A stretch of 64,000 nucleotides of DNA from Aggregicoccus sp. 17bor-14 (GTDB lineage: Bacteria > Myxococcota > Myxococcia > Myxococcales > Myxococcaceae). The position numbers and the translations under genes were made by a program. The stretch spans positions 62,001 to 126,000 of the forward strand of contig NZ_VJZZ01000017.1 in NCBI RefSeq assembly GCF_009659535.1, in the 5' to 3' direction. The notes under the pieces were generated by a model. It made no database searches. It saw only the letters and a program-made list of their open reading frames with translations, and was not told where the DNA came from. Below, piece after piece: positions 27,020-39,598 of this stretch; position 1 is the first letter of the stretch, and every line of letters begins with the position of its first letter.

Positions 27020-27829
27020 TCAGGAGAGGTGCTGGAACTTCTCGCGGTAGCTGCGCGCGACCCGCAGCACTGCACCGCAGGACAGGACCGCCATCAGGTC
27101 GCGCCGCCCCTCGCTGCGCAGCTCGCGGATGCGCCCCTGGTTCACGATGGCCGAGCGGTGGATGCGCATGAAGCACGCCGGGTCCAGCCGCTCCTCCAGG
27201 CTCTGCATCGTCTCGCGGTGCAGGTAGGTGTGGGGGCCTGCGTGGATCTGCACGTAGTAGTCCGCCGCCTCGATCCAGTCGATCTCCGCCACGTCGAGGA
27301 ACACCACCCGGCCCACGTCCTTGATGGCGAGCCGGGTGAGGTAGGTGGGCTGCTGCGGCTGCGGGGCGGGGGGATTGGCCGCGCCCGCCTCGGCGCCCTG
27401 GTAGGTGGCGAGCGCGCTGAGCAGCTGCGCCTTGAGGTCCTGCACGTGGTGCAGCCGCAGCTGGTCCTTCGCGCGGCGCAGCGCCTCGTAGAAGCGGTCG
27501 TCGTCGTAGGGCTTGAGCAGGTAGTCCATCGCGTGGATCTCGAAGGCCCGCAGCGCGTAGCGGTCGTACGCGGTGACGAAGATGACGGCCGGCAGGGGCT
27601 CGGGGGCCAGGCGGGCGAGCACCTCGAAGCCGTTGAGCTCGGGCATCTGCACGTCGAGCATCACCAGCTCCGGGCGCAGGCGCCGCAGCGCTTCGAGCGC
27701 CTCGCGGCCGTTGGCCGCCTCGCCCACGATGTCCACCTCGGGGTCCTGGGCGAGCAGCATGCGCACCCCCTCGCGCGCGAGCGGCTCGTCGTCCACCACC
27801 AGGGTGCGGATGCGCTCGTGGGTGCTCAT
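27020..27829 (-). CDS. LytTR-family response regulator
   Basis: 269-aa regulator. The receiver (1-120: VVDDEPLAREG) has acceptor Asp59 in VMLDVQMPELNG and Lys in YLLKPY; a Pro/Gln-rich linker follows at about 150-165. The LytTR DNA-binding domain (about 165-269) has VVFLDVAEIDWIEAADYYVQI, LEERLDPACFMRIHRSAIVN and ends VARSYREKFQHLS. It overlaps its kinase gene by 4 bases, forming a cotranscribed pair. Targets are unknown. Confidence 0.93.
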   Translation of the reverse strand: MSTHERIRTLVVDDEPLAREGVRMLLAQDPEVDIVGEAANGREALEALRRLRPELVMLDVQMPELNGFEVLARLAPEPLPAVIFVTAYDRYALRAFEIHAMDYLLKPYDDDRFYEALRRAKDQLRLHHVQDLKAQLLSALATYQGAEAGAANPPAPQPQQPTYLTRLAIKDVGRVVFLDVAEIDWIEAADYYVQIHAGPHTYLHRETMQSLEERLDPACFMRIHRSAIVNQGRIRELRSEGRRDLMAVLSCGAVLRVARSYREKFQHLS

Positions 27830-28995
27830 GGGGCGCGCTCCGCAGGGGCGAAGGGGATCTCGAGCCAGGCGCGCACGCCCCCGTCCGGGTGGTTCTCCAG
27901 CGTGAAGCGGTGCGCGTCCCCGTAGAGCTGGCGCAGGCGCGCGCGCACGTTCGCGAGCCCGATGCCGCTGCCCTCCTGCCAGTCCGCGCGCAGCCCCGGG
28001 CCGTCGTCGCGCACCTCGAGCTGCAGCCAGTCCCCGCGCCGCGCCGCCGAGAGCTCCAGCGTGCAGGCCGAGCTGCAGCGCGCGATGCCGTGCTTCAGCG
28101 CGTTCTCCACCAGCGGCTGCAGGAGGAGGTTGGGCACCTGGGCGTCCAGGGTCGCGGCCTCGATGCGCCGGTGCACGTTGAGCCGGTCGTGGAAGCGCGC
28201 CTGCTCGAGGTCGAGGTAGCGCTCGAGGAAGTCCAGCTCCTCCTTCAGCGGCACGTGCTGGCGCCCGGTGTTGTGCAGCGCCATGCGCAGCAGCTCGCTC
28301 ACCCCGGTGAGCATGCGCACGGCCGCCCCCGTGTCCTGCTTGCGCACCAGCACGCTGATGGCGTTGAGCGTGTTGAAGAGGAAGTGCGGGTGCAGCTGCA
28401 TCTTCAGCGCGTCCAGCTGCGCCTGGGCGAGCTGCGTGGCGAGCTGCGCCTGGGCGAGCTCGCCCTCGCGGAAGCGCCGGTGGTAGTCGAGCGCGGAGCC
28501 CACCGCGAGCACCCCCAGGTAGCTGACCAGCTCGAAGGGCAGGCTCTTGAGCACGCTGAGCGGCAGCATCTGCGCGAGCGTGTTCTGCAGGTACCAGGGC
28601 CGCCCGGCGAGCTGCCCGCAGTAGAGCGCCGCGGCGGTGTGCGCGGTGCTCACCGCGAAGAGGGCCGCCAGGTGCACGGGGACCGCGTTGCGCAGCGTGC
28701 CCGGCTCCAGCCGGAAGCGCCGGCCCAGCGCGAGGATGGGCAGGGTGACCAGCGCCCAGAAGAGCCAGGGCGGGTACTGCCAGATGAGCGCCGTGCGGAA
28801 GCGCAGCCCCGGCTCCTCGTGCTGGATGACGAAGTAGAGCGCGGTGGCGGAGAGCAGCCCCGGCACGCTCCAGAGCAGCAGCATCGGGACGAGCCGGTGC
28901 AGCAGCCAGTGCCCCGCAGCCCGCACGGCCGCGGCCTCCGCGTGCCGCCGGGGGGCGACCGGGAAGGGCAGGGTGGCGGAGGGGCGTGGATCCAC
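27826..28995 (-). CDS. LytS/YehU-type sensor histidine kinase
   Basis: 389-aa membrane kinase, GTG start. About four to five membrane helices lie between residues 30 and 168, then a cytoplasmic coiled coil. The His_kinase box is HPHFLFNTLNAISVL with His204 (or His202), and the GHKL domain has PLVENALKHGIA and GSGIGLANVRARL. Kinases of this type pair with LytTR regulators; the partner starts within its last codons. A second such pair lies at 46984-48848. Confidence 0.92.
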   Translation of the reverse strand: MDPRPSATLPFPVAPRRHAEAAAVRAAGHWLLHRLVPMLLLWSVPGLLSATALYFVIQHEEPGLRFRTALIWQYPPWLFWALVTLPILALGRRFRLEPGTLRNAVPVHLAALFAVSTAHTAAALYCGQLAGRPWYLQNTLAQMLPLSVLKSLPFELVSYLGVLAVGSALDYHRRFREGELAQAQLATQLAQAQLDALKMQLHPHFLFNTLNAISVLVRKQDTGAAVRMLTGVSELLRMALHNTGRQHVPLKEELDFLERYLDLEQARFHDRLNVHRRIEAATLDAQVPNLLLQPLVENALKHGIARCSSACTLELSAARRGDWLQLEVRDDGPGLRADWQEGSGIGLANVRARLRQLYGDAHRFTLENHPDGGVRAWLEIPFAPAERAP

Positions 28996-29157: not shown

Positions 29158-30600
29158 TCAGGGCCACAGCCGCACCGTCCCGTCGTAGGAGGCGCTGGCG
29201 AGCCGGCCGTCGCGGAGGGTCGCGAGGCTGCGGACGAAGGCGCCGTGCGGGTGTGTGCCGCGCGGCGTGAGCTGCGCGGCGTCGAGCAGTCGCAAGAGGT
29301 CGTCCTCTCCGCCGCTCGCCAGCGTGCCATCCGCGCGCAGGGCGAGCGCGCACACCGCGCCGCTGTGGACGGCCGCGCGCTGCGCCGGCGTGCCCCGGAG
29401 CAGCCGGGTGATGCGCCCCTCGGCGTCTCCCGCGTAGAGCGCTCCGTCCGCGGCGGCCGCGAGCGCGCGCAGCGGGGGTCCGGCCTCGACGGGGCGCGCC
29501 TCCTCGCGCCGTCGCGCGAGGTCCCACACCCGCAGCGTGCCGTCCTCGGAGGCCGAGGCGAGGCGGCCGCCCGGCAAGCCCGCCAGCGACCACACCCAGC
29601 CCGCGTGGCCCTCGAGGACCCCTGCGGCCTTGCCCTCCTCCGACCACAGCCGGATGAGGCCGTCCGCGCCGCCGCTGGCCAGCAGCCCGGGCGCCACCCT
29701 CGCGAGGCAGAGCACGGCCCCCGCGTGCCGGCCCACCTCGCGCGGGCGGCCCCCCTCCCAGCAGAGGACGCGCCGGTCTCGCGAGCCGCTCCACAGCCGC
29801 CCGCCCGCGTCCTGCGCGAGCGCCACCACCGAGGCCGTGTGCCCGCGCAGCTCGCCGTCCGGCTGCCAGCCTTCGCCCGCGCGGCGCCACAGGCGCACCG
29901 TGCAGTCGCGGGAGCCCGTGGCGAGCCGGCCGTCCTGCAGCGCGAGCACGCTCCACACGTAGCCCTCGTGGGCGCCGAGGACGTGGGGCTCGTGGTGTGG
30001 CGCCGCGTCCTCGCAGGTGTAGAGCACGTCGGTGCGCATCACGTACTTCGTGCCCTGCGTGACGGCCTCTCCGTCGTGCCAGAGCGCGTGGTCGAAGACG
30101 ATGGCGGTGCCGGCCTCGGGCTGCACCGTGCCGAGCAGCGCCGAGTCCGCACCCCGCTCGGCGTAGTAGCGGGTGTGGCCTCCTCGGAAGTCGCGCGCAT
30201 CGTTCAGGTAGAGCATCAGGGTGAGCTGCGAGCGCACCCCAGGCCGCGGCGACCAGGCCCCGTCCTGGTGGATGCAGAAGCGCTGGCCCTCGCGGTAGCG
30301 GCAGTAGCGAAAACGCGGGTTGAGCCCGTGCAGCCGCCAGTGGCGGCCCTGCGCGTCCTCGAGCTGCGCGGGCAGCAGGGGACGCAGCCGCGCGAAGAGC
30401 CGCTCGGCGAGGCCTGCGTCGTCCCGCACGAGCCGATCGTTGTCCCGGTACGAGGGCGGGTAGTCGCGGCCCGTGGCCGAGAAGTGCGCGGCCTCGGCCT
30501 CGGAGATGACCTCTGCGCACTCCGCCCGGGACAGCGCCTCCCGCACGAGGAAGCAGGGAAGGCCGGTCTGCACGTCCGCACTTGCGTAATTTGGGTGCAT
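29158..30600 (-). CDS. 2-oxoglutarate/Fe(II) oxygenase fused to a seven-blade WD40 propeller
   Basis: 480-aa two-domain protein. Residues 1-205 form a prolyl-4-hydroxylase-type dioxygenase: FCIHQDGAW supplies His111 and Asp113, LWHDGEAV supplies His175, and Arg189 in KYVMRTDVLY should bind 2-oxoglutarate. From about 207 to the end are seven WD-type repeats, each ending in VRLW, VLCW, IRLW, LRVWD, ITRLL, LLRLL or VRLW, enough for one closed propeller. The oxygenase probably hydroxylates a protein held by the propeller. The ATG at 30600 is used; the upstream TTG adds two residues. The start codon lies within a dyad likely bound by the divergent TetR protein. Confidence 0.9.
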   Translation of the reverse strand: MHPNYASADVQTGLPCFLVREALSRAECAEVISEAEAAHFSATGRDYPPSYRDNDRLVRDDAGLAERLFARLRPLLPAQLEDAQGRHWRLHGLNPRFRYCRYREGQRFCIHQDGAWSPRPGVRSQLTLMLYLNDARDFRGGHTRYYAERGADSALLGTVQPEAGTAIVFDHALWHDGEAVTQGTKYVMRTDVLYTCEDAAPHHEPHVLGAHEGYVWSVLALQDGRLATGSRDCTVRLWRRAGEGWQPDGELRGHTASVVALAQDAGGRLWSGSRDRRVLCWEGGRPREVGRHAGAVLCLARVAPGLLASGGADGLIRLWSEEGKAAGVLEGHAGWVWSLAGLPGGRLASASEDGTLRVWDLARRREEARPVEAGPPLRALAAAADGALYAGDAEGRITRLLRGTPAQRAAVHSGAVCALALRADGTLASGGEDDLLRLLDAAQLTPRGTHPHGAFVRSLATLRDGRLASASYDGTVRLWP

Positions 30601-30608
30601 GACCAAAT
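30589..30608. promoter_or_regulatory. candidate TetR operator between divergent genes
   Basis: ATTTGG (30589-30594) and CCAAAT (30603-30608) are perfect inverted arms around 8 bases, in an AT-rich patch unusual here. Outer bases add partial symmetry (GCG/CGC). The centre contains the start codon of the oxygenase-WD40 gene and it lies 51 bases before the TetR start. Confidence 0.5.
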
Positions 30609-30659
30609 AATGCGCAGGTGCTCGGGATGGTGCAAGGTGACCTGGAGGGAGAGCGCCGG

Positions 30660-31271
30660 ATGGGAAGACCGTCGAACAGCGAGGAGCGCCGGGGGCAGAT
30701 CGTGGACGGGCTGCTCGAGGTGATGGCGCGCCAGGGCTACGCGCAGGCCACCATCGCGGCCATCGGCAAGGCGGCGGGGCTCACGCCCGGGCTGCTGCAC
30801 TACCACTTCGAGACGAAGCAGGACATCCTCGTCGCGCTCGTGGAGCGGCTCACCGGCGCGCTCGCGCTGCGCGTACAGCGAAGGCTCGAGGCCGCGGGCG
30901 ATGCGCCGCGCGCGCGCCTGCACGCCTTCCTGGATGCCTACGTGGCGATGGGCGAGGACGCAGACCCTCGCGCGGTGGCCGCCTGGGTGGTGGTGGGCGC
31001 GGAGGCGGTACGCGAGCCGCAAGTGCGCGCGCTCTACACGCAGGCAGTGGGGGAGACGCTGCGGCAGCTGCGCGAGCTGCTCGGCGAGTGCCTTCGCGAC
31101 GAGGGCCGCGGCACGCGGCAGGTGGGGCGCATGGCCGCGGGGCTGCTCAGCGCCATCGAGGGCGCCTACCGCGTGAGCGCCGCGGCACCCGGCGTGCTGC
31201 CCGAGGGCTTCGCTGCGCCCACGCTGCGGCGCATGGCGGACGGGATGCTGGATGCAGAGGAGCGGACATGA
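30660..31271 (+). CDS. TetR-family transcriptional regulator
   Basis: 203-aa TetR repressor. The N-terminal helix-turn-helix runs through ATIAAIGKAAGLTPGLLHYHFETKQDILVAL, the standard TetR signature; the rest is an all-helical ligand/dimer domain. The start MGRPSNSEERR is typical for the family and has GAGGGAGA upstream; in-frame GTG 30618 would add 14 residues. It is divergent from the oxygenase-WD40 gene with 59 bases between, and overlaps the HD-domain gene by 4 bases (ATGA). It probably represses itself and the oxygenase gene. Confidence 0.92.
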   Translation: MGRPSNSEERRGQIVDGLLEVMARQGYAQATIAAIGKAAGLTPGLLHYHFETKQDILVALVERLTGALALRVQRRLEAAGDAPRARLHAFLDAYVAMGEDADPRAVAAWVVVGAEAVREPQVRALYTQAVGETLRQLRELLGECLRDEGRGTRQVGRMAAGLLSAIEGAYRVSAAAPGVLPEGFAAPTLRRMADGMLDAEERT

Positions 31272-34408: not shown

Positions 34409-35260
34409 ATGAAGCCGCTGCTCACTGCCCTCGCGCTGCTCACCGCCCTCACGGGCTGCGTCTCGCAGGGCACCTACGATGCGCTGCGCACCGAGCACGA
34501 GACCACGCAAGGCCTGCTCGAGGAGCGCAACCTCGCCCTCAAGAAGCGCGAGGAGGAGCTCGCGGCGGGGCAGAAGCGCGAGCAGGACCTGCAGGCGGCG
34601 CTGGCCTCGGAGAAGGACAACGTGAAGGAGCTCAACGAGCGCATCTACGCGCTGGAGGCCGAGCGCGCGCGCGTGCTCAAGGACCGCAGCGCGATGGAGG
34701 CCTCGGTGGCGGAGATGACCACCGCGCTCAACGAGCTGCAGCAGCGCAAGGAGGAGGCAGAGGCGCGCATGGGCGAGTACCGCGCGCTGCTCGCGAAGTT
34801 CCGCGGCCTCATCGACGCCGGCAAGCTCAAGGTGCGCATCGTGGAGGGGCGCATGGTGGTGGTGCTCGCCTCGGACGTGCTCTTCCCCTCGGGCAGCGCG
34901 AGCCTCAGCAAGGAGGGCAAGGCGGCGGTGGGCGAGGTGGCCACGCTGCTCGCCTCCATCCCGCGCCGGCAGTTCCAGGTGGAGGGCCACACGGACAACG
35001 TGCCCATCGCCACCGCGCAGTACCCGAGCAACTGGGAGCTCGCGGCGGCGCGTGCGCTCACCGTGGTGAAGACGATGCGCGAGGTGGGGATGCCCCCGGA
35101 CCGCATCAGCGCGGCCTCCTTCGGCGACAGCAAGCCGGCCGTGCCGAACGACTCCGCGGAGGGCCGCGCGCAGAACCGGCGCATCGAGATCACCATCGTC
35201 CCGGACCTCTCCACGCTGCCCGGCTTCGACGAGCTGCAGCGGGTCGAGAAGGAGTCCTGA
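34409..35260 (+). CDS. OmpA-family lipoprotein with coiled coil
   Basis: 283-aa outer-membrane lipoprotein: lipobox LTALTGC (Cys17), a coiled coil from about 20 to 135 (EEELAAGQKREQDLQ...), and a C-terminal OmpA/MotB peptidoglycan-binding domain with FPSGSASLSKEG, VEGHTDNVPI, NWELAAARALTVV and GRAQNRRIEI. It probably ties the outer membrane to peptidoglycan. GGAGGAG precedes the ATG by 8 bases. Coiled coil plus OmpA resembles stator- or motility-associated envelope proteins, but no motility gene adjoins it. Confidence 0.92.
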   Translation: MKPLLTALALLTALTGCVSQGTYDALRTEHETTQGLLEERNLALKKREEELAAGQKREQDLQAALASEKDNVKELNERIYALEAERARVLKDRSAMEASVAEMTTALNELQQRKEEAEARMGEYRALLAKFRGLIDAGKLKVRIVEGRMVVVLASDVLFPSGSASLSKEGKAAVGEVATLLASIPRRQFQVEGHTDNVPIATAQYPSNWELAAARALTVVKTMREVGMPPDRISAASFGDSKPAVPNDSAEGRAQNRRIEITIVPDLSTLPGFDELQRVEKES

Positions 35261-35478
35261 GCCGCGCGCGGAAACGGCCCGGTTCCGTTCCCGCACAACT
35301 TCTCTCGCAGTGCGAGTGGCAGGCAGGCGCGAAACCGCGCCTGCGCAGCAGCCGGGCAAGCGCGATGCCTACCCCGTGCCTTGTTGTCCTACGCGCCCGC
35401 ATTGCCCTCTACGCCTCCGAAACCGGGAACTCCGCGTGAAGAGCGCGGCACAAACCTTCCCCCGGTGCAGGGAGTGCG

Positions 35479-37404
35479 ATGAAGGCTTCGAGACTGAGCG
35501 TGTGGGCGCTGGGAGTGCTGCTGGCCGGTTGCGGCGCGGCACCGGACGACGGCAGCGCGGACACCGAGCCCACCGCGGAAGTGCAGGGTGAGCTCGCGAG
35601 CAACTCTCCCGTCTTCACCGACGCGCTGGGCACGGGCTGGCAGGACTGGTCCTGGGCGAGCCACTCGCTCACCAACGCCTCGCCCGTGGGCAGCGGCACG
35701 CGCTCCATCGCGGTCACCTTCGGCGCCTGGCAGGGCCTGTACTTCCACCACTCGCCGCTCACCACCGCGGCGGGCGACGCGCTCGAGCTGATGGTGAACG
35801 GCGGCGCCACGAGCAACCCGGCGCTCAACGCCTACGTGACGGTGAACGGCGCGGCGCGCACGCAGCTCGCCATCAACGCCTTCTGCACCGGCGCGCGCAT
35901 CCCCGCGAACGCGTGGACCACCTGCCGCATCCCGCTCTCCAACCTCGGCGCCGCGGCGGCGCAGGTGGACGGCGTGGTGCTCATCGAGGGCGCGGGCAAG
36001 AGCCTGCCGCCGCTGTACGTGGACGGCGTGCGCCTCGTGGCGGCGACCCCGGCCCCGACGCCCACCCCGACCCCGACCCCGACTCCGGCCGTCAGCGTGG
36101 CCCTCACGCCCGCGAGCACCACGCTCGCGCCGGGCGCTTCCCAGGCCTTCACGGCCACGGTGAGCGGTACCACCAACACCGCCGTCACCTGGAGCGTGCA
36201 GGAGGGCAGCGCGGGCGGCACCATCAACAGCTCGGGCGCGTACATCGCGCCGGGCGCGGCCGGGACCTACCACGTGGTCGCCAAGAGCAGCGCGGACGCG
36301 ACGAAGGTGGCGAGCGCCACCGTCACCGTGACCTCGGGCACCACCCCCCCGCCGCCTCCCACGTCCACGAGCGGCAAGTGGGTGTCCGCCTACTACGTGG
36401 GCTACCAGCAGGACCTCTACCCGGTGGACAAGGTGGACATGAGCGCCATCACCCACCTGATGGTGAGTCGCGTCATCCCCAACGCGGACGCCTCGCTGAA
36501 CACCGGCTTCGACACCTACCAGGGCGAGGCCATGGCGACGAAGCTCACGGCGCGCGCGCACGCGGCCGGCAAGAAGGCGATCATGATGGTGGGCGGCGCG
36601 GGTGAGCACGGCGGCTGGGTGGGCGCCTCGAGCGACGCGAACCGCACCCGCTTCGTGCAGAACCTGCTCGCGACCATGGACCGCCTCGGCTTCGACGGCA
36701 TCGACCTCGACTGGGAGCCGGTGGACACCGCGGACAAGCCGCTGCTGCTCGCGCTCGCGCGCCAGCTGCGCAGCACCCGCCCCAACGTCATCCTCACCTT
36801 CCCCATCCGCTGGCTCAACAGCAACGCGGGCAGCGCGGACGCCTGGTACGCCACGCTGGCGCAGTCGCTGGACCAGGTGAACGTGATGGCCTACGAGATG
36901 GCGGGCGCGTACTCCGGGTGGGTGAGCTGGCACAGCTCCGCGCTCACCGGCGAGGGCGCGGACCACCCCTCGAGCAACGCCTCCAGCCTGCGCATGCTCG
37001 CCGCCGCGGGCATCCCCAAGTCGAAGCTGGGCATGGGCATCGGCTTCTACGGCATGGCGTGGCGCAACGAGACCGGCCCGCTGCAGCGCATCGCGAGCGG
37101 CAGCGACCTCAAGGGCAGCGACAACTACGTCACCTACGCGTACGTGATGCGCTACTACTCGGACGCCGCCTACCGCTGGGACGCGAACGCGCAGGCCGGC
37201 TACCTCACCTTCACGAGCCCCGTGGACGGTGACGTGAAGTTCATCTCCTACGAGAGCCCCCAGGCCATCGCGGCGAAGGGCAAGTTCACCAAGGACAACG
37301 GCTATGGCGGCACCATCATCTGGACGGTGAACCAGGGCTGCACCAACGCGAGCACCGGCGCGAATCCGCCACTGGACGCCGTGAAGGCCGCCTTCCTGCA
37401 GTAA
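35479..37404 (+). CDS. GH18 chitinase-like lipoprotein with N-terminal beta domain and Ig-like linker
   Basis: 641-aa exported enzyme. Lipobox VLLAGC (Cys18) anchors it. Residues 40-190 form a beta-sandwich resembling a carbohydrate-binding module; a PTPTPTP linker follows, then an Ig-like domain (VSVALTPASTTLAPGASQAF) to about 285 and another Pro-rich linker. The catalytic barrel from about 295 has the GH18 motif FDGIDLDWEP with Asp406, Asp409, Asp411 and catalytic Glu413, plus QVNVMAYEM. It would cleave chitin or related beta-1,4-GlcNAc polymers at the surface, fitting a predatory lifestyle. Confidence 0.92.
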   Translation: MKASRLSVWALGVLLAGCGAAPDDGSADTEPTAEVQGELASNSPVFTDALGTGWQDWSWASHSLTNASPVGSGTRSIAVTFGAWQGLYFHHSPLTTAAGDALELMVNGGATSNPALNAYVTVNGAARTQLAINAFCTGARIPANAWTTCRIPLSNLGAAAAQVDGVVLIEGAGKSLPPLYVDGVRLVAATPAPTPTPTPTPTPAVSVALTPASTTLAPGASQAFTATVSGTTNTAVTWSVQEGSAGGTINSSGAYIAPGAAGTYHVVAKSSADATKVASATVTVTSGTTPPPPPTSTSGKWVSAYYVGYQQDLYPVDKVDMSAITHLMVSRVIPNADASLNTGFDTYQGEAMATKLTARAHAAGKKAIMMVGGAGEHGGWVGASSDANRTRFVQNLLATMDRLGFDGIDLDWEPVDTADKPLLLALARQLRSTRPNVILTFPIRWLNSNAGSADAWYATLAQSLDQVNVMAYEMAGAYSGWVSWHSSALTGEGADHPSSNASSLRMLAAAGIPKSKLGMGIGFYGMAWRNETGPLQRIASGSDLKGSDNYVTYAYVMRYYSDAAYRWDANAQAGYLTFTSPVDGDVKFISYESPQAIAAKGKFTKDNGYGGTIIWTVNQGCTNASTGANPPLDAVKAAFLQ

Positions 37405-37486
37405 GGGCAGCCGGGCGCACCTTGTTCTTGCGGACGGGGCAGGGACCTATAGGGTTCCCGCCCCGTCCCGCAGACAAGGAGCTCCC

Positions 37487-39598
37487 TTGAAGAAGAGCCT
37501 TCTCCTCCTCGGTGCGACCGCGGCCTGTGCCGCCGGTTGTGCCACCAGCAAGTCCCCCGCGCCGCAGCCCGCGGCTCCCGTCCAGCAGCAGGCCGCTGCC
37601 CCCGCTCCGGCTCCGGCCCCTGCTCCGGAGCAGAAGCCCGAGCTGGGCAGCTTCGGCTTCGACGTGGCCGGCATGGACCGTCAGCAGCAGCCCGGCGTGA
37701 GCTGGACGGGCTACGCGAACGGCACGTGGACGAAGACCACGGAGATCCCCGCGGACCGCGCGCGCTACGGCATGTTCAACGTGCTGGACGACCGCGCCCG
37801 CGAGCAGAACCGCGCCCTCATCGAGGAGGCCGCGAAGGCCCACGCCGCACAGGGCACGGACGCGCAGCGGGTGGGTGACTACTTCGCGTCCTTCATGGAC
37901 GAGCAGGCCATCGAGCAGAAGGGCGCCGAGCCGCTCAAGCCCGCGCTCGCGCGCATCGCTGGCATCAAGACGAAGGCGGACCTCGCGCGCGTGCTCGGCG
38001 AGCACCTGCGCCAGACCAACCCCACGCCCTTCGGCGTGTACGTGAACCAGGACGCGAAGAACCCGGACCGCTACATCCCCATCTTCGTGCAGAGCGGCCT
38101 GGGGCTGCCGGACCGCGACTACTACCTGCAGGACAACCCCAAGTTCGCCGAGGTGCGCCAGAAGTACCAGGAGCACATGGCGCGCATGCTGGTGCTCGCC
38201 GGCGTCCAGCAGGCCCAGGCGGCCGCGAAGGCCAAGGGCATCTACGGGCTGGAGGAGAAGCTCGCCCGCGCGCACTGGAGCCGGGTCGAGAGCCGCGACG
38301 ACGACAAGACCTACAACAAGTGGATGAAGGCGGACTTCGCGAAGAAGGCGCCCGGCTTCGACTGGGGCACCTTCCTCAAGACGGCGGGCCTGGACGCGCA
38401 GGGCGAGTTCATCGTCTCGCAGCCCAGCGCGCTCACCGGCACGGCGAAGCTGCTGGGCAGCCAGCCGCTCGCGGTGTGGAAGGACTGGCTCACCCTGCAC
38501 ACGACGAAGGACTACGCGCCGCTGCTCAGCCGCGCCTTCGTGGACGAGGACTTCGCCTTCGACGGCACGGTGCTCAGCGGCCAGCCGCAGAACCAGGAGC
38601 GCTGGAAGCGCGGCGTGGACCACGTGAGCCACGCCATGGGTGAGGCCGTGGGCAAGCTGTACGTGGAGAAGCACTTCCCGCCCGAGGCCAAGGCCGAGGC
38701 CGACCGGCTGGTGAAGAACGTCATCGCCGCCATGGACGCGCGGCTCGCGAAGCTGCCCTGGATGGCGCCCGAGACGCGCGAGAAGGCGCGCCAGAAGCTC
38801 GCCTCCTTCAAGCCGAAGATCGGCTACCCGGTGAAGTGGCGCGACTACTCGGCGCTCGAGGTGAAGCGCGACGACCTGGTGGGCAACGCCGAGCGCGCGG
38901 CCGCCTTCGAGTACAACCGTAACCTCGCGAAGCTGGGCAAGCCGGTGGACCGCGACGAGTGGTTCATGCCGCCCATGCAGGTGAACGCCTACGCGAACCC
39001 CACCATGAACGAGGTGGTGTTCCCGGCCGCCATCCTGCAGCCCCCCTTCTTCGACAAGAACGCGGACCCCGCGGTGAACTACGGCGCCATCGGCGCGGTG
39101 ATCGGCCACGAGATTTCGCACCACTTCGACGACCAGGGCCGCAAGTACGACCCCCAGGGCCGCCTCACCGACTGGTGGAAGCCCGAGGACGTGCAGCGCT
39201 TCAAGACGTACACCGACCAGCTGGTGGCCCAGTACAACCAGTACGAGCCGCTGCCCGGCGCGCACGTGAACGGCGCGCTCACCCTGGGCGAGAACATCGC
39301 GGACCTGGCCGGCCTGCTCGTGGCCTATGACGCGTACCAGCTGTCGCTCGGCGGCAAGCCCGACCGCGTGCTCGAGGGCTTCACCGGCGACCAGCGCTTC
39401 TTCCTCGGCCACGCGCAGGTGTGGCGCAGCAAGTACCGCGAGGAGGCCCTGCGCCAGCAGCTGGTGGTGGATCCGCACACCGCGGGCCACTTCCGCCCCA
39501 ACGTCAGCCGCAACATCGACGCCTGGTACACCGCCTTCGACGTGAAGCCGGGCCAGCCGCTGTTCCTCGCGCCCGAGCAGCGCGTGCGCATCTGGTAG
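37487..39598 (+). CDS. M13 family metallopeptidase lipoprotein (neprilysin/PepO-like)
   Basis: 703-aa lipoprotein endopeptidase. The TTG start is supported by AAGGAG 4-9 bases upstream and by the signal peptide it begins (MKKSLLLLGATAACAAGC, Cys18). An Ala/Pro linker precedes the M13 N-terminal domain (about 60-440). The zinc site is IGHEISHHFD with His541, Glu542 and His545, and GENIADLAG with Glu602 and Asp606. VNAYANPTMNEVVFPAAILQPPF is a further M13 signature. It likely degrades peptides at the outer membrane or outside. Confidence 0.95.
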   Translation: MKKSLLLLGATAACAAGCATSKSPAPQPAAPVQQQAAAPAPAPAPAPEQKPELGSFGFDVAGMDRQQQPGVSWTGYANGTWTKTTEIPADRARYGMFNVLDDRAREQNRALIEEAAKAHAAQGTDAQRVGDYFASFMDEQAIEQKGAEPLKPALARIAGIKTKADLARVLGEHLRQTNPTPFGVYVNQDAKNPDRYIPIFVQSGLGLPDRDYYLQDNPKFAEVRQKYQEHMARMLVLAGVQQAQAAAKAKGIYGLEEKLARAHWSRVESRDDDKTYNKWMKADFAKKAPGFDWGTFLKTAGLDAQGEFIVSQPSALTGTAKLLGSQPLAVWKDWLTLHTTKDYAPLLSRAFVDEDFAFDGTVLSGQPQNQERWKRGVDHVSHAMGEAVGKLYVEKHFPPEAKAEADRLVKNVIAAMDARLAKLPWMAPETREKARQKLASFKPKIGYPVKWRDYSALEVKRDDLVGNAERAAAFEYNRNLAKLGKPVDRDEWFMPPMQVNAYANPTMNEVVFPAAILQPPFFDKNADPAVNYGAIGAVIGHEISHHFDDQGRKYDPQGRLTDWWKPEDVQRFKTYTDQLVAQYNQYEPLPGAHVNGALTLGENIADLAGLLVAYDAYQLSLGGKPDRVLEGFTGDQRFFLGHAQVWRSKYREEALRQQLVVDPHTAGHFRPNVSRNIDAWYTAFDVKPGQPLFLAPEQRVRIW

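Follow-up and report, generated by a model that had tools for sequence, protein, structure and literature searches.

A prolyl-4-hydroxylase-like oxygenase fused to a complete WD40 propeller in Myxococcota, with a linked TetR regulator

Introduction

What could a bacterium gain by carrying an oxygenase and a WD40 propeller in a single chain, and what would such a protein act upon? The question is posed by one gene in a stretch of 64,000 nucleotides from Aggregicoccus sp. 17bor-14 (hereafter the window; features in Table 1), in which an earlier sequence-only reading saw a 2-oxoglutarate (2OG) oxygenase with its own docking platform, i.e. a protein hydroxylase with a built-in substrate receptor. 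To our knowledge, bacteria have yielded few protein hydroxylases so far, and the finding of their substrates is the bottleneck.

Table 1. Features of the fusion locus and its surroundings (window coordinates)
Feature	Position	Strand	Basis
Fusion gene, 480 aa, ATG at 30600	29158..30600	-	Pfam, AlphaFold2, orthologues
Oxygenase domain, aa 12-196 (approx.)	30013..30567	-	PF13640; invariant columns; P4H alignment; fold matches
Linker between oxygenase and propeller	about aa 197-206 of the fusion		
WD40 propeller, about aa 207-480, seven blades	29161..29982	-	PF00400; DSSP of model; 5yzv
Operator-like palindrome TTGGTCATGCACCCAA (minus strand), overlapping the fusion start codon	30591..30606	.	Lies between fusion and TetR, which diverge
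Predicted promoter	30607..30635	-	Layout common to 8/8 orthologues checked
-10-like CATTAT, 6 bp to ATG	30607-30612	-	
-35-like TTGCAC, 17-bp spacer to -10	30630-30635	-	
TetR-family regulator, BetI-type C-terminal domain, transcribed away from the fusion	30660..31271	+	PF00440, PF13977
HD-like gene overlapping the TetR stop codon	31268..31876	+	Pfam HD, sub-threshold (15.5 bits; cut-off 22)

Two domains in one reading frame

The join of oxygenase and WD40 repeats in a single open reading frame (ORF) is confirmed by Pfam, by AlphaFold2, and by nine further Myxococcota genomes and a Lysobacter MAG; as independent genomes keep the same fusion, an artefact of assembly or gene calling is ruled out. 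Structure prediction, which the sequence-only reading had proposed as a check, yields a confident two-domain model (mean pLDDT 89.8, pTM 0.85, the input alignment comprising ten natural fusions), with an oxygenase fold followed by a seven-bladed ring.

An intact-looking oxygenase of the P4H/PKHD group

Pfam finds 2OG-FeII_Oxy_3 (PF13640) over residues 99-188 at 41.9 bits, against a gathering threshold of 27, and the orthologues score between 36.5 and 40.9 bits. The iron ligands are His111, Asp113 and His175, just as first read from the sequence, whilst the 2OG anchor had to be reassigned: alignment with prolyl-4-hydroxylases (P4Hs) puts it not at Arg189 but at Lys185, ten residues beyond the distal His175 and matched to the lysine of 'LHGGAPVTKGEK' in the B. 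anthracis enzyme. His111, Asp113, His175 and Lys185 are invariant across fused and solo homologues; Arg189 is likewise invariant, but lies at His+14. Judged from these residues, the catalytic set of the 2OG-Fe(II) oxygenase appears complete and intact.

Since a fold search with the full-length model filled up with WD40 structures, the oxygenase was also modelled alone with 13 homologues, which gave a double-stranded beta-helix (pLDDT 90.2) with structural matches up to Z 19.2. Heading these are the PKHD hydroxylase 3dkq (Z 19.2), an algal P4H (18.2) and PiuC (18.0), followed by a viral collagen P4H (17.4), the lysyl hydroxylase LH3 (16.9), the P. putida P4H (16.5), PHD2 (16.4) and OGFOD1 (16.2); PolD is also among the matches. 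The model thus places the domain in the P4H/PKHD structural group, most members of which use protein substrates. The nearest solved structures are mostly protein hydroxylases (P4H, PHD2, LH3 and OGFOD1), whilst PiuC and PolD point to no protein substrate; PolD, from Streptomyces cacaoi, presumably acts on a small-molecule precursor. The architecture, catalytic set and fold behind the proposal of a protein hydroxylase stand, but the structural neighbours do not all speak for a protein substrate.

How far does the likeness to known enzymes go? With the bacterial P4Hs of B. anthracis (3itq, 5hv0, 5v7y) and P. putida (4iw3, 4j25), the domain has in common its fold (Z 15-16.5) and the H-x-D...H...K layout with lysine at His+10, and the family profile matches the Bacillus enzyme at E 2.5e-17. 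These enzymes, two of which (5v7y and 4iw3) are linked to EF-Tu by their PDB titles, are however stand-alone proteins with no WD40 domain, and are about 16-23% identical to the fused oxygenase. PKHD-type hydroxylases (3dkq; PiuC 9ghl and 9qn0-9qn4) are the top structural match at Z 18-19, yet they too lack a propeller, and the fusion falls far under the NCBIfam PKHD equivalog cut-off (PRK05467; best 29.7 of 143 bits). Closer relatives exist within the Myxococcaceae, many other members of which carry propeller-less homologues only (~195 aa, 38-43% identity); these belong to the same subfamily and have all the catalytic residues in common, but are encoded in ORFs without WD40.

A closed seven-bladed propeller

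The C-terminal 275 residues match WD40 (PF00400) at 126 bits (E 2e-37) and fold, in the model, into seven blades whose inner strands start at residues 215, 258, 296, 336, 377, 416 and 456 (DSSP). They superpose on the WD40 domain of T. curvata PkwA (5yzv; TM 0.89 by target, 34% identity), as well as on WDR61 and WDR5. The seven repeats counted in the sequence, and deemed sufficient for a closed propeller, are thus borne out by both the model and the superposition. PkwA has the same seven-bladed WD40 architecture, but its annotation is that of a probable Ser/Thr kinase, not of an oxygenase. With the fusion, an oxygenase would join the catalytic partners already known for WD40 propellers in bacteria.

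WD40 propellers of seven blades usually serve to bind proteins, although nucleic acids and small molecules can be ligands of propellers too, and some may simply dimerise. In seven representatives, the most distant included, Y214, W216, R231-D232, R274, W335, E432-D433, F455 and Y472-D473 are invariant; some of these are structural residues of WD40 domains, and those with aromatic side chains may form a binding face. Towards the distant members the propeller is 33-40% identical, versus 50-56% for the oxygenase. A role as built-in substrate receptor is plausible. A functional analogy to the fusion comes from C. elegans, where the prolyl hydroxylase EGL-9 works with the WD-repeat protein SWAN-1, as shown by two-hybrid and co-immunoprecipitation (PMC2928816). 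Unlike the fusion, these are two separate eukaryotic proteins, with no family relation to it.

Could the propeller instead be an output? In that case the oxygenase would sense O2, iron or 2OG, and what the propeller binds would change once the cofactor is bound or hydroxylation takes place. Such a device would suit a set of proteins in which both domains are always joined, and whose pTM suggests a fixed domain arrangement; however, the hydroxylases of the P4H/PKHD group are mostly ordinary catalysts, and we regard a sensor as improbable.

Distribution and evolution of the fusion

The intact fusion is present in 10 of the 195 Myxococcota genomes searched, the window's own included. Six belong to species of one genus (group g7; 60-63% identity to the window's protein), two to the genomes G051 (60%) and G087 (45%), and one, G150, to another family of the phylum. 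A Lysobacter MAG carries a single intact copy (43% identity), and none was found in 78 relatives of this MAG. A relic lies in Nocardia pseudovaccinii (L005, 6001-6450), 52% identical over residues 138-278 and so spanning the domain junction, but with an internal stop, most of the propeller deleted and the last propeller motif in another frame. Beyond the Myxococcota and the relatives of the Lysobacter MAG, the search consisted of one pattern-based scan from a single sequence, so this spread is a lower bound.

Might the fusion be accidental or decaying, with no function of its own? Its patchy spread and the Nocardia relic would fit, but the catalytic residues are invariant, the fusion is kept across families along with its promoter and operator-like site, and dN/dS in close pairs is well below 1 in both the oxygenase (0.07-0.20) and the propeller (0.15-0.40), so that both domains appear to be under purifying selection. 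The same two-domain protein kept in other genomes under such constraint is more than chance, and we consider the accidental reading largely refuted, with only a very slight probability left to it.

On whether the fusion arose once, the tree is equivocal: it nearly splits fused from solo oxygenases and the best tree needs two label changes, yet one change suffices in 36% of bootstrap trees and branches are long, so that one and two changes of state are both compatible with it. A phage or mobile origin was rejected, as no fusion was found in viral contigs or plasmids and the phage search gave one match, to the oxygenase only. A defence system was likewise rejected, PADLOC matching only repeat-type and generic 2OG entries.

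In line with the first impression that the fusion is not a described family, we found no description of an oxygenase-WD40 fusion in the open-access literature, a weak sign of its absence, since most subscription journals lay outside that search. Both domains, and P4H-like bacterial enzymes, were already known; the novelty would lie in the conserved joining of the oxygenase to a whole WD40 ring and in the TetR regulator linked to it.

A linked TetR regulator and an operator-like palindrome

The gene divergent from the fusion encodes a TetR-family regulator (PF00440, TetR_N, 46.2 bits versus 24; PF13977, 50.5 bits) that fails the BetI equivalog TIGR03384 (68.6 of 201.3 bits), and is a TetR with a BetI-like C-terminal domain rather than BetI itself. 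The sequence-only reading mentions neither this gene nor its operator-like site. The two genes diverge in the same way in G051 and G087, while in G150 TetR follows the fusion directly, on the same strand, making four lineages in all with a TetR gene adjoining the fusion; in the g7 genomes a relative (52-55% identity) is located away from it.

All ten Myxococcota fusion starts, i.e. those of the four TetR-adjacent lineages and of the six genomes with an unlinked TetR, carry a palindrome of consensus TTGGTYnnnnRACCAA. In the window, g7 and G051 this site overlaps the start codon; in G087 it stops 3 bp short of the ATG, and in G150 about 20 bp short. In 15 whole genomes the exact palindrome occurs 13 times, eight times at fusion starts, three times at TetR promoters (G039, G041 and G063) and twice inside unrelated ORFs (L082 and L083), the last two taken as chance; a reversed control pattern gave two sites in the same genomes. 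The version in the window and in G051 (TTGGTCATGCACCCAA) has one mismatch to the consensus, and counts with one mismatch allowed (three sites versus one control site in the window's genome, two versus three in G051) prove nothing alone, so the evidence for the palindrome lies in its position and conservation. That it is kept at the fusion even where TetR is distant is, to our eyes, the strongest sign that palindrome and regulator belong together, and TetR would be expected to bind it. Such regulation is not universal, however: no such palindrome was found at the Lysobacter fusion start, nor at the TetR locus itself in G035-G037, so that autoregulation is not universal either.

Upstream of the start codon, TTGCnn - 17 bp - CATWWT - 6 bp - ATG recurs in all eight fusion genes checked (window, g7 and G051). 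This layout puts the predicted transcription start on the A of the ATG, implying a leaderless mRNA with the operator lying across its start.

What, then, would the regulator sense? TetR regulators typically respond to small molecules, and two kinds of neighbour, both named by reading their sequences, hint at a signal of this sort: a transporter-like gene that TetR overlaps in G063 and G041, and, in G150, an ORF after TetR that clusters with a metallo-hydrolase-like ORF near TetR in g7 and other genomes. From here arises the chief rival to a propeller-docked protein hydroxylase, namely that the oxygenase acts on a small molecule (a xenobiotic, an antibiotic or a metabolite), either the TetR ligand itself or something like it, whilst the propeller only scaffolds or oligomerises the enzyme. 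The usual ligands of TetR regulators, these neighbours and the structural match to PolD all speak for it; on the other hand, P4H-type enzymes, which for the most part hydroxylate proteins or peptides, give the best matches in both profile and fold, and the general habit of seven-bladed WD40 propellers is to bind proteins, and on balance we find a small-molecule substrate rather unlikely, if worth keeping in mind.

At the TetR loci of G063 and G041 (L091 and L092), the palindrome lies at the TetR promoter and the transporter-like gene is overlapped by a few bases; in G063 this arrangement is present though the fusion is absent. The transporter-like gene is possibly a second target of the regulator.

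A proposed mechanism

We posit that the fusion is a protein hydroxylase repressed by TetR until induced, with the target docked on its WD40 propeller; to this proposal we would give even chances. The repressor would sit across the transcription start and start codon, keeping the gene normally off; when its ligand appears, repression would be lifted and the leaderless mRNA made. The propeller would then, most likely, hold a protein or peptide and present a side chain to the oxygenase, which with Fe(II), O2 and 2OG would hydroxylate it.

Several lines converge on this proposal: the invariant iron and 2OG residues, a fold nearest to PKHD and P4H enzymes (Z 15-19) and the profile match to a bacterial P4H; a closed WD40 ring, with both domains kept jointly across families and in another phylum under purifying selection; and a TetR gene adjacent in four lineages, a palindrome rare elsewhere and a promoter layout found in every case checked. 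Against it we count the lower conservation of the propeller and the other uses to which propellers can be put, as well as the Lysobacter copy without an operator, the mismatch in the window's site and the operator-less TetR loci of G035-G037. A more specific version, in which a single chain is both enzyme and receptor and a small molecule induces it by way of a TetR with hardly any other target, is held more tentatively, at somewhat short of even.

With its likely receptor in the same chain as the hydroxylase, the system offers a direct experimental route: a propeller pull-down could yield the substrate itself, whilst the TetR gene beside it, with an operator met almost nowhere else, provides a clean genetic handle and a way to the inducing molecule.

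Other genes at these loci

Conserved neighbours were considered as a clue to function and dropped, since TetR is the sole consistent partner: the g7 fusions sit in at least two unrelated places, and the remaining neighbours vary among genomes. The HD-like gene occurs near TetR only in the window, G051 and G087, and its membership of the system is uncertain. Just downstream of the fusion, the window carries a LytS-type histidine kinase and a LytTR response regulator (27020-28995, minus strand), a pair that was not seen beside the other fusions.

A different oxygenase fusion was met in G037 (L038, 2695-4959, minus strand), where a single ORF of 754 aa combines 2OG-FeII_Oxy_3 (29.5 bits) with adenylate kinase (73 bits) and an APH-type phosphotransferase (81 bits); matching ORFs of similar length are found in G035, G036, G038 and G042. 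Further along the window (34412-39598, plus strand) genes for OmpA-family proteins, a GH18 chitinase-family protein with a linker of Pro-Thr repeats, and M13 peptidases stand in a row.
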